NCBI RefSeq assembly: GCF_042242105.1
Contig: NC_092020.1
Coordinates: 17,700,788 to 17,764,787, forward strand
Direction of reading: 5' to 3'
Length of the DNA stretch: 64,000 bases
Origin: Pempheris klunzingeri
Taxonomy: Eukaryota > Chordata > Actinopteri > Acropomatiformes > Pempheridae
A program made the position numbers and the translations under genes. Positions 56,835 to 62,240 of the stretch are shown here, piece by piece. The notes beneath the pieces are model-generated. The model worked only from the letters and a program-made list of their open reading frames with translations. It was not told the origin of the DNA and made no database searches. How positions within the stretch are numbered: position 1 is the stretch's first letter; every line of letters begins with the position of its first letter.

Positions 56835-58709
56835 TCAGTAGGTCTCTGGTATAACAAAGTCAAACTCTGTGGCTCCCTGAGGAGGACTGTTCACGGATGG
56901 CGTCGGTCGGGCAGCCGGCAAATTGGCATCAGGCTCAACAAAGATGTCGTCCCAGTTCAACATCCTGCTCTGGGTGGAAGAGTGGACGTCCTCATCGACG
57001 CTGGTTATGTGATGTACGCTGCCGTCCTCAGACATGACAGGGACCCCCTGCCCGTCAGTAGTCCACGAGTACGGCTTCATCTGCACCGTTTTGCATGGCA
57101 GCAGTCGGTACAAGTTGTTGTCAGCGTCATCTTTCTCTTTCCTCCCACTGGGGTCCTGGTTGTGGACCTGCTTGCAGTGGGTGGACAGCACCTGATAGTT
57201 CATGAACATTTCATTGCACAACAAACACTGGTACCTCCTCTCTCCTGTGTGGTGGATTTCATGTTTAGTTCTATACTCGGCCAGAGCAAAGACCTTGTTA
57301 CAGTAGCGACACGGGTACTTCTTTTCCCACGAATGGGTGTTGAAGTGACGGCGGAGACTCGTTAGGCAGACGTAGGGACGCTTGCAGACGATGCACACAT
57401 AGAAAGTCTTTCCATCCATGATCAGCTCGTAGTGATCTTCAAGCTCCGTTTTGGTCCTCTTCTTGTTTGGGCTGGTTTTCGGTGATGTGGGTGCTTTATC
57501 TAAGGGTTTCAAAGGCGTTGCCATTAATGCCCTCTTCCCTTTATTGGCTTTGGAGCCTCCCTCGTCTGGATCTTCCTTCACTGGGACAATGTCGTAAGTA
57601 TTTTCGCCAATATTGGCATACACTTTACAGCCTGATGAAATTGAATCAATCTCTGTGGTCGTATTGAGTGTCACTGTCTTTTTTGCTGCCACAGCTGATT
57701 TAGGAATGTTAGTTTGATTTGCAGGGCTGTCTGTCACATCCATGAGCCTTATTTTCAAATCCCCTTGCTGAGATGAAGTGGAGACTTGCTTCTTGTGGAC
57801 TCCCATTATATCACTGCTTTCAGAGGACAGAGAGGCACTCGAGGGCTCAGGGGTGAAAGTGCTTGACCTGGCTGGTGTTGTGGGAGCGCTTCCTGAGGAA
57901 ACTCTGGCAGGGGAAGACGAATTATTGGAGCTGCTGTCTGGACTGCGCAGAGGGCTACTGTTGGGCAAACTGGGGTTTGGACAGCTGATGGTGAGAGGCT
58001 TTGGAGTGTTTGTTTTCACCGGGGCTCTGGCTTTCTCTTTATTTTTTGCATCTGCATGATTTGATTCTTCACTTTTCTTTGATCCTGCTTTTTCGGAACC
58101 AGCTAAATCCAAATCAATGACCTCACTAGAGCTGTCTTTCTGACTGGATGCTCTGGTTTGAACATCTGTTTGAGAGACAAACATGACGTCATTGTCCGAG
58201 TCCCCATCATTACCTGCAGGTCGGCTTGTCTGATTGAATTCCTCTGCAGATATTGAGAAAGACTCTGTGATGATGGGCATCATCTCTGTGGATGTGTCAC
58301 TTTTGTTTTCCGTCTCCTTTGACAGACCAGGCAGACCCTTAACTTGTGATAATGGTGACCCCAAGTTTGCAATGAACTTGACTCCCAGTATCTGTCCAGC
58401 ATTTATGAGCTCCTCAAGCATGTCAGAGCGAACACGGACAATCTTGGAGCTGTAAATGTAATTGAGAATCTCCTCAAAGATTTCTGCTCTGATGAAATTT
58501 AACTCAATCACTTGTCCAGCTACAGTGAAGAGCTGGTGGAAATATGTACTCGAGGCGGACAGGATTGTTTTGTGAGCTCTGAATTTCTTGTCCTGTATGA
58601 TAATGGTGACATCACAAAATAATCCATGATTTCGCTGCTCATTCATTGACTTCAGCACAGCCGCTGAATACTGTGTGTCGGTCGCAGATATCAGCTTTAG
58701 ACTTGGCAT
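56835..58709 (-). CDS. zbtb33: Transcriptional regulator Kaiso (ZBTB33)
   Basis: The main coding exon gives 624 aa from MPSLKLISATDTQYS. Residues about 1-120 are the BTB/POZ domain (GLFCDVTIIIQDKKFRAHK, YIYSSKIVRVRSDMLEEL), which dimerises and recruits NCoR. A long Ser/Pro-rich linker follows. Three C2H2 zinc fingers lie at about residues 434-520 (CIVCKRPYVCLTSLRRHFNTH, then CRYCNKVF, then CLLCNEMF), nearly identical to human in the part that reads methyl-CpG or the TCCTGCNA site. The end is FDFVIPETY, against FEFIIPESY in human. The start matches the ATG two bases after an acceptor (exon start 58711). Upstream in-frame Met 58748 lies in the intron. Two upstream exons could be spliced in, one of them coding (see 60395-60710). 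Confidence 0.97.
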   Translation of the reverse strand: MPSLKLISATDTQYSAAVLKSMNEQRNHGLFCDVTIIIQDKKFRAHKTILSASSTYFHQLFTVAGQVIELNFIRAEIFEEILNYIYSSKIVRVRSDMLEELINAGQILGVKFIANLGSPLSQVKGLPGLSKETENKSDTSTEMMPIITESFSISAEEFNQTSRPAGNDGDSDNDVMFVSQTDVQTRASSQKDSSSEVIDLDLAGSEKAGSKKSEESNHADAKNKEKARAPVKTNTPKPLTISCPNPSLPNSSPLRSPDSSSNNSSSPARVSSGSAPTTPARSSTFTPEPSSASLSSESSDIMGVHKKQVSTSSQQGDLKIRLMDVTDSPANQTNIPKSAVAAKKTVTLNTTTEIDSISSGCKVYANIGENTYDIVPVKEDPDEGGSKANKGKRALMATPLKPLDKAPTSPKTSPNKKRTKTELEDHYELIMDGKTFYVCIVCKRPYVCLTSLRRHFNTHSWEKKYPCRYCNKVFALAEYRTKHEIHHTGERRYQCLLCNEMFMNYQVLSTHCKQVHNQDPSGRKEKDDADNNLYRLLPCKTVQMKPYSWTTDGQGVPVMSEDGSVHHITSVDEDVHSSTQSRMLNWDDIFVEPDANLPAARPTPSVNSPPQGATEFDFVIPETY

Positions 58710-59964
58710 GGCTGTAGAGAGAGAAAAAAAAAAAAAAATCAGAATCACACTACTGAATGCCTAAAGTCAGTTTATTACACTATGGTGCAAAAACAGGAGA
58801 AATTGTTGTTAAAAGCTAAAATTCTGATTTATCCTGCTTTTCCAGTTCTAACGATCAATTATCACACACACGTCAGCATGCAATGGGTGAAGAATGCATA
58901 AACTTTGTTAAAGGAAGTTTATGCCTCCAAAACCTGTTTTCTTTGGGTTGTGCAATACTGCAGGTTACATATATCCAGTTTCCAGTGTATCAGCTGGCTA
59001 AAACTTTGGCAGTCTAATAAGTCCTGCATCCACGAGGTTTACAATGTCTGTTTCTCCTGGAAAATGGTCATTTAGGTTGTAGTTTGAGGTCTTGTTGCTT
59101 TGTGCGTTATACTGAGACCAATAGAAGATATATTTAGGCCAATATTGATGAATGAGAATAAAAAATATCAGTGTTCACTGGTGGACAAACTATGCAAGGA
59201 TGACACAGTTATCTCAAACACGTATTTGACATTTTTCTGTTAAAATTAGTTGCTAAACTACAGCCTCCAAAATGACCATAGAGTTGAATCAAAAGAGCTT
59301 TAACAAAAAATGATCATTCAAACCTTCATGATGGCCTGATTTATAGCAGGGCTGTTGTTGGTTGCATTAACTTAAGCTGCTTGTGCCTAATATTAATAAG
59401 CTGGCTGTTGTTGAGGTGTAATTGCTAATGTATAATTTATATACACATTATTTCATCCTCTCGAAAAGTCTGACCCAGGTTTAGTCTACGATGCAAACAG
59501 ACACAGTGAGAGTATGAATGTGTACATCAGTGTTTGTACTCACGCTAACAAATGTTGGACATAGTTGTGTTAGGCAAACAAAAACAGTAAAGATACCTTA
59601 GCTGACATTAGCTATCGTCAAACGTAGTTTGTCAAAGTTGAAACTTAGCTGAAATTTCAGTCTCGCATGACATTATAAGACTCAAGAACAGCGTATATTG
59701 GACTTTAACGGGGTCAATGCCTAATTTTATATGTGTATTATCACTGTTGTCGCTGTATTTAAGTTAATACTGACAGGCTGTTGTTAGCTAGCTAACAAAG
59801 GTAACGCTAGCTTCCTCTTTAATGAAAAGGGGACAGCGCGGCCTCCCATATAGCATCTTGTTAGCATGCTAGCTCCAGACAAACCACACACACACACAAT
59901 GGGCACACGCTACTGTGAAATCCTGCCACTTTAAATGGCTGTGCATAAAACGAGCTCAGTTTAC

Positions 59965-60130
59965 CTGCAACCCTTGTGATTTCTGCCAAGACTAAGCAGG
60001 ACCACCGACGGTAGTAGTAAACTTAGCTGGCTACAGACAATGGCTAACAACAGACAGCTTCCCCAGCCGATAGCGCTAACCTGCCCACAGCTCATTGATT
60101 GAACAGCCACAAGGAGTCGCCGTCGTGTAG
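59965..60130 (-). other. zbtb33: Candidate noncoding 5' exon of zbtb33
   Basis: On the minus strand GGTTGCAG|GTAAAC is a strong donor at 59965. Spliced to 58711 it would give a plain leader for the standard Kaiso start. The upstream end of the exon is approximate. Confidence 0.45.
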
Positions 60131-60394
60131 GAGCAATGAAACAACAAATTTAAAACGATATAACATTACAAAACATTTTAGAAATAACCGGTTCACTCCA
60201 CGCTGGACTGTAAACATTAATAAAATAGAGTGTTGACGTTTTCTCGGATAAAAATTATTTAGTTTTTCCTGGTTGCGTTTAGCGCCTAGACTGTAGGTTT
60301 AGCGTTACCATAACTACCGGTTCATTGGTTTCGCCTTCAAAATAAAAGCACAGAGTATTACACTATCTCAAAAACATCAGACAAATTAAAATAC

Positions 60395-60710
60395 CTGAGG
60401 ATTTCTGTTCAGGTTTAGAGTCTCCATTCAATCCAGGGCCTCCTGAGGTCCCTTTGGAGCGGTTGAAATCTGCATGCAGCTGGTCGGACATGGCCTTCCT
60501 CTCCTCGGCATTGTATTTACTATACTTCTCCGCGTGTTTGCAGTTGTAATGCCGCCTCATGTTGAATTCCTTAAATAATACTTTATACCTGCAGATGAGG
60601 CACGTAGCTGTCGTGTTCAGCTCCGTGAAAAACAACTCCTTTGCTATTTTCTCCTCCACATGCTTGCTCACGGGCTCTGCTTTCTTTAGTTTAACAACAG
60701 ACGCAGACAT
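60395..60710 (-). CDS. Coding exon with transposase-type C2H2 finger, in frame with zbtb33
   Basis: An ATG at 60710 opens 105 codons that end at a TCCTCAG|GTATTT donor in phase 1. The Kaiso acceptor (exon start 58711) is CC ATG CCA, so splicing gives an Ala codon and then runs straight into Met 1 of Kaiso in frame, for a product of about 730 aa. The exon encodes C37-x2-C40-x13-H54-x4-H59 (TCLICRYKVLFKEFNMRRHY), followed by KHAEKYSKY. This matches the single finger of the SPIN-DOC / GTF2IRD2 / EPM2AIP1 group, which is common at the N-terminus of hAT-derived proteins. No other minus-strand exon is seen between here and Kaiso. It could also be a separate small gene whose other exons I missed. 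Confidence 0.6.
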
Positions 60711-60849
60711 CTTGCTTCACTTGGGTGTTGCTACAAAAAACATACAAGCTACTTCACAGCGAGGACCACTGCTGCAGCACAGAGTCCCAAACTAATTAAA
60801 AGTCCACAGCCACATGGTTTCTTTGTTCCGGTGTTGGGTTGTGAGCGCG

Positions 60850-62240
60850 GAACTGAAATCGGAAGTTGAGTTTTTACCATTACAACTATGTTATATTGTT
60901 TGATAAAGGCATTATAATATTGATAATTGTGCACGTTGAAAATTTAATGTTTTCGTTATTATTTATTAAGTGAGAATACATTTAATTTCCCCCACTGTTA
61001 CCACTGTTCCTCGCACAGTTATATTATTTCTTGCACAGTTATATTTCTATTATATTTATTTTTTCACATGCTGCCTTTTCCTATTTATTTGTATTTGCAT
61101 TTATTTTTATATCTTTTAACTGGTATATTTAAATGTGGGCATTCATTGCGGACAGCAATGAAAGAATTTCATTGGACATGGAAACCTGTTTCCTTACTGT
61201 GCATATGATAATAAACACTTTGGATCCTTGAATCCTTGAATCCTGTTGCACAGGACACATTCACCACCATCAACTGGCAAACAAACAACTGGCATGCAAA
61301 CAAAAATGCTGAAAAACGACTCACCTGCACCTTTTCAGTGCAGAAATGTCATCTTAGACACATGCCATTTAAGGAGCAACTCCTTCTCTATTCACTTTTT
61401 AGTAACCATTTCTTCTCAGAGAATTTATTTATAAGTGATTGGTGTATATTGTATTTTGCACCTTTTACTGTTTTGGTTTCATGCTTAATTCAGTATATTT
61501 AAGACTCTTCACCCACACAGTCTATCTTTGTACTTCTCCCTGCATGAGATCAATCAAATGTATATATGAGTCATTTATAAATGACTTTTAATTATACATC
61601 AGGTAGATTCTGTTCTTTTCTTTTGTTCTTGAACTCATCCTTCATGCATGTATCAGTTTGCAATTTGTGTGCAAGCATTGGAAATGGATGACTCAGTAAA
61701 GACTGAAACACTGAACCAGACATCTTTAATTTACAGTAACATTACAAAACATGTTTATAAAGGGCTTTATCCACTTTATTTATATCCTTTCTTTTTCTAT
61801 TTATCTTCATCACATAGTAGTCGAAGACAGTCTTGCAATTAAAGAATAAAAATAATGATAAAATGATAGTAATATTATAACGTTATGATATAAAGTCAAT
61901 GGTATTTTAAACTTATTCAGTCAAATAAATGAAATAGTGACAACCATTAACAGTCAAGATAAACTAGTTGCTAAATTATATGTTTAGCATTTTGCAGGGT
62001 CCTAAATAAATAATTTAAGTATCAGATTCTTTCTTTATTCTCTCTGTATTTAGTTGTTATAGTTTGATGTACAATTTCACATTTAAAGATTAAGCGGAAC
62101 TATGTGCTTTACATTGTCCGGCAGACCGGTGTCTTTTAGAGAACGGACACATCAGGACTTCCTGTTATTAGACGCTTCTGTTGCGTATTAACGATACGGA
62201 ACAGTGAGCGTGTGGTAACTTGTCCGTTAATTTCCCACTA
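60850..62240. other. Spacer between zbtb33 and nkap with a LINE-like 3' tail
   Basis: Bases 61000-61245 read like the 3' end of a fish non-LTR element: TTGCACAGTTATATTTCTAT, AAAGAATTTCATTGGAC, ATAATAAACACTTTGGATCC, then a tandem TTGAATCC tail. The remainder to about 62100 is AT-rich, with no exon recognised. The GC rise from about 62110 marks the nkap promoter. Confidence 0.5.

Follow-up and report, generated by a model that had tools for sequence, protein, structure and literature searches.

A candidate alternative first exon with a hAT-type zinc finger upstream of the Kaiso gene (zbtb33) in the fish Pempheris klunzingeri

In ZBTB11, an integrase-like HHCC zinc finger lies N-terminal to the BTB domain and the C2H2 fingers, according to excerpts of two published accounts (PMC5384227, PMC12062965), and an excerpt of the first reports conservation of the HHCC domain across more than 22 species of vertebrates (PMC5384227). 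In a rescue assay excerpted from the same account, HHCC point mutants failed, whereas a protein with the N-terminus deleted still rescued (PMC5384227), so the role of the domain does not appear to be simple. A model for the capture of such domains, attributed to Cosby et al. 2021 in an excerpt of PMC12062965, holds that a transposon inserts near a host transcript and is then exonised via alternative splicing.

Here we describe a possible fusion of this general kind in a window of 64,000 nucleotides from Pempheris klunzingeri (the whole stretch of NC_092020.1 that was analyzed, positions 17,700,788 to 17,764,787; coordinates below are those of the window), where a zinc finger exon lies upstream of the gene for Kaiso. 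Kaiso ties DNA methylation to repression. The genes of the window were read as, presumably, C1GALT1C1, CUL4B, LAMP2, ATP1B4, TMEM255A, ZBTB33 and NKAP, in the gene order of human Xq24; among the neighbors, Pfam matches to the FAM70 profile (TMEM255A) and to the Na/K-ATPase beta chain back this reading. The features that matter for the analysis are given one per line.

56835..58711, minus strand: coding exon of Kaiso (zbtb33), beginning at the acceptor and ending with the stop; encodes BTB and Kaiso-type C2H2 fingers, 624 aa counted from the Kaiso Met
58712..58730, minus strand: Kaiso acceptor, polypyrimidine tract plus AG; score 8.3, among the best 0.17% of the strand's AG sites
59750..60999, no strand: raised CpG observed/expected ratio (o/e) over both candidate first exons, 0.71-0.83 in 500-base windows
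59965..60060, minus strand: possible non-coding leader exon for standard Kaiso; donor 59964 scores 3.5, and the 60060 limit is arbitrary
60279..60334, minus strand: competing partner exon behind a 60-nt intron, acceptor 60334, tail GETNEPVVMVTLNLQSRR and stop
60389..60394, minus strand: finger exon donor, GTATTT after CAG, mediocre; 1.6 bits
60395..60710, minus strand: candidate alternative coding first exon with hAT-type zinc finger; 105 codons plus 1 nt
60534..60602, minus strand: C-x2-C-x13-H-x4-H finger CLICRYKVLFKEFNMRRHYNCKH, motif start 60602; below the Pfam zf-C2H2_12 cutoff

The identity of the Kaiso exon is secure from its matches to known proteins: the best PDB hits were the Kaiso fingers (5vmu, 2.2e-60) and the Kaiso BTB domain (3m4t, 1.6e-58), and BTB was found in Pfam at 4.7e-23. 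By eye, we take it to carry three C2H2 fingers. In the genome of the fish, where a first look gave 1852 candidates of which 71 were scored, Kaiso had a single full-length match, the next reaching 55% identity over the fingers, and no ohnolog or retrocopy showing the mature 5´ end was found among these 71.

The finger exon, as read from the sequence, runs from an ATG at 60710 to 60395 (316 nt) and ends in phase 1 at CAG/GTATTT. A sequence-only reading of this DNA had proposed an exon of 105 codons with one C-x2-C-x13-H-x4-H finger ending in phase 1, continued in frame into Met 1 of Kaiso for a protein of about 730 aa, and both parts of that proposal held on re-reading. The Kaiso acceptor reads CTCTCTCTACAG/CCATG at 58711, placing the Kaiso ATG 2 nt after the acceptor, and the computed join of 60710..60395 to 58711 is in frame and without a stop over 730 aa, a fit that chance alone would give in 1 of 3 cases. 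No ATG precedes that of the finger in its frame, and an A stands at position -3. Two short upstream frames seen by eye, out of frame with the finger, start at 60815 and 60743 and could reduce translation of the finger exon if transcription starts further up.

Several observations support the coding nature of this exon, which in composition, intact zinc ligands and uniqueness resembles coding sequence. Translated in all six frames, the window contains a single instance of this exact finger pattern, against none in 20 first-order Markov windows. The codon model was trained on just two frames of the window, Kaiso and the C1GALT1C1-like one, and the background stretches were chosen by hand; of 3554 overlapping background windows, one scored as high as the exon when stop codons were left out, and none did when they were counted. 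An open reading frame due to chance only was rejected based on the codon score, the rarity of the motif and the matches in the genome, and we are confident that a real hAT-related coding exon lies upstream of Kaiso.

Against Pfam, the finger peptide matched zf-C2H2_12, the "Spin-doc zinc-finger" (E = 2.4e-4), at 21.2 bits, under the gathering score of 27.3, and so is better regarded as a diverged relative than as a member at the curated level. GAGA factor was matched at E = 0.0057, also below its cutoff, and the reversed peptide matched 0 families. By sequence, the best PDB match was only E = 0.39 (GAGA factor), and the single NCBIfam match (E = 0.051) fell far under its cutoff. As expected, no relative of the finger exon was found in the viral, bacterial or archaeal contigs scanned, and the one weak match in the phages scanned (E = 0.05) was taken as chance. 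An uninformative AlphaFold model from single-sequence input gave two long helices running through the finger and no finger fold (pTM 0.35).

The relationship of the finger is instead seen in the genome of the fish. A search of its 645.9 Mb (439 contigs) with the finger peptide at E ≤ 0.001 gave at least 67 scored matches including the exon itself, the other loci, at least 66, showing 28-48% identity. We fetched 40 of the 66 (20 + 20) for alignment and a tree, and all 40 aligned with the exon. For three chosen copies, all three open frames scored above the zf-C2H2_12 cutoff, one of them with an additional sub-threshold DUF4371 match (E = 0.022). Downstream of the finger, Dimer_Tnp_hAT exceeded its Pfam cutoff in two of the three frames scanned (L009 and L027); the downstream frame of L019, cut at 330 residues, had no Pfam match at 0.01. 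Since relatives in the genome carry both the Spin-doc finger and the hAT dimerization domain, the finger belongs with those of hAT transposases, in line with the transposase-type finger of the sequence-only reading, and the data support its kinship with the finger at the N-terminus of these enzymes. The exon has in common with hAT transposases of the Spin-doc type its finger spacing, flanking residues and alignment, but past the finger it has just an unrelated tail (TSGGPGLNGDSKPEQKSS) that leads to a donor, and it lacks the catalytic and dimerization regions.

Two observations concern the copies themselves. The open frames of L011, L013, L014, L026 and L054, on different chromosomes, end alike (...EDVSSDIKSDI* or nearly so), which suggests a repeat family limited to the N-terminal portion of the transposase. 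In L042, read by eye, the frame passes from the finger almost straight into a stretch like the hAT C-terminus, and this copy looks like an internally deleted hAT element.

The DNA of the finger exon was found at one place in the fish's own genome, with no near-identical copy. In a tree of 40 of the 66 other matches plus the exon, built on about 84 residues with ungapped extension past the BLAST match, such that the edges of frameshifted copies may have been misread, the exon is the sequence furthest from its nearest neighbor (1.55; the next is L050 at 1.34) and is placed beside L050 with modest support (0.80). At columns conserved in at least 85% of the 40 copies, excluding columns with fewer than 25 letters, the exon keeps 12 of 18, all four zinc ligands included, and has lost six; at columns invariant in five hAT subfamilies it keeps 11 of 19 and has lost eight. 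Several conserved hAT residues are thus missing from the exon, including a tryptophan and the QQ..F stretch. In a neutral-drift simulation of 3000 runs that started from the present exon and assumed 10% indels, the frame stayed open in 14.6%, 2.3% and 0.07% of runs at 0.05, 0.1 and 0.2 substitutions per site. The analysis suggests that selection acted on the exon after capture, short of proof because a large share of the divergence may be older than the capture and have arisen inside the transposon.

The intron was searched by tblastn with five N-terminal open frames only and by tblastx with whole fetched loci; no hAT remnant was found (tblastx against 20 fetched loci, 1e-4). The three inverted-repeat pairs in 60200-61300 do not frame an element. 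A recent hAT insertion was rejected given the single-copy exon DNA, the intron free of hAT sequence in these searches and the inverted repeats that frame nothing. An old captured domain fits better, because the DNA is single, codon use is coding-like, the ligands are kept and the exon is distant in the tree. Further upstream of the exon, the segment 61088-61267 is repeat-like and probably a dispersed repeat; it has a tblastx match in L020 (1.2e-10), located there directly after the hAT finger. An inverted-repeat pair lies across 61022-61213.

We consider it fairly probable, on the arrangement of exon, frame and signals, that zbtb33 uses the finger exon as an alternative coding first exon, joined in frame to Kaiso. 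The likely splicing to Kaiso rests on anatomy: a strong shared acceptor, a matching frame, a common strand and no other gene seen between them. TMEM255A runs toward Kaiso from the opposite side, and by eye, without gene prediction, no other downstream gene able to own the exon was seen in the window. Scored with approximate position weight matrices, the finger exon donor, at 1.6 bits, is in the top 4.5% of the 3719 GT sites on the strand and is missing the +5 G; its score falls below that of the leader donor (59964), so the sequence-only reading had overstated it as a good donor. An acceptor-like site at 60730 (3.1) lies 20 bases before the finger ATG, and given this site the exon might be internal, with a non-coding exon upstream. 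The CpG o/e is 0.31-0.49 in 500-base windows over 58500-59749 and 1.0-1.25 around the NKAP-like exon at 62-62.7 kb, the latter above both candidate first exons; the moderately raised ratio over these exons is consistent with, but not strong evidence for, a promoter region with two first exons. The second promoter that the sequence-only reading placed near 60720 is putative.

Other readings of the exon are less probable. The exon could belong to a small gene of its own that lies upstream of Kaiso in head-to-tail orientation and makes an independent hAT-type finger protein of 115 or 123 aa, a reading that we hold to be unlikely while giving it some weight. The claim of the sequence-only reading that no other partner exon lies between was not strictly right: acceptor 60334, the next best in the intron after that of Kaiso (score 4.05, top 2.3% of AG sites), would add an 18-codon tail (GETNEPVVMVTLNLQSRR*) for 123 aa in all, and unspliced read-through stops shortly past the donor (GILICLMFLR*) to give 115 aa. 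In a search for AATAAA and ATTAAA only, poly(A)-type signals were found at 58776 (AATAAA) and 59823 (ATTAAA) and could terminate a separate transcript, but the nearest lies about 450 bases beyond the stop. The Kaiso acceptor is also far stronger than 60334, and an intron of 60 nt is at or under the usual lower limit for teleosts.

Finger copies of hAT type are common in this genome (at least 67 matches), and the losses at conserved hAT positions, among them the tryptophan and the QQ..F stretch, are what a degenerating fragment without a role, its frame open by chance, might show. This we regard as quite unlikely, as the frame is open, the ligands are intact and the codons are coding-like despite the lack of a near-identical copy in the genome, and the rest of a hAT element was not seen in the intron. 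We would put very little weight on a role mainly as an alternative 5´ leader, serving dosage or tissue control, with protein made mostly from Kaiso's own Met. The Kaiso ATG, 2 nt past the acceptor, would stay in any such RNA, but the finger ATG comes first in frame, and A at -3 favors the use of an ATG as start, such that a fused product is expected; the composition of the exon, again, is coding-like.

In the fusion that we favor, an old single-copy exon with its origin in the zinc finger at the N-terminus of a hAT transposase would be transcribed from upstream of 60710, or be joined to an upstream leader spliced near 60730. This first coding exon would end at 60395 and be joined to the common acceptor at 58711, for a predicted long product of 730 aa in the order finger, BTB, Kaiso fingers, whereas transcripts that begin near 60000 and use the leader donor (59964) would give the ordinary 624-aa Kaiso. 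The BTB domain may dimerize the added fingers, and the long form would thereby gain an extra DNA or protein contact beside the repressive BTB. That the finger of this isoform still recognizes hAT ends, sending BTB-dimerized Kaiso and its corepressors not just to methylated DNA but also to hAT copies, is a long shot; if true, it would be a transposon-derived silencer built upon a methyl-DNA reader.

No Kaiso-hAT fusion was seen among the papers listed in literature searches. In the fusions surveyed by Cosby et al. 2021, as excerpted in PMC12062965, splicing likewise brings the DNA-binding domain of a transposase together with a regulatory domain of the host; that survey is described as covering tetrapods, whereas the present case would be one in a fish, with Kaiso as the host gene. 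By analogy, the closest precedent appears to be ZBTB11. According to the excerpts cited above, this ZBTB repressor has its BTB preceded by a zinc-binding domain like those of mobile elements, as would the predicted Kaiso fusion, but that domain is an integrase-type HHCC, whereas a hAT-type C2H2 finger, apparently on an alternative first exon, is found here. If the fusion is real, it would add a lineage-specific case to the host-transposase fusions, with a methyl-DNA reader as the host protein and ZBTB11 as a parallel.
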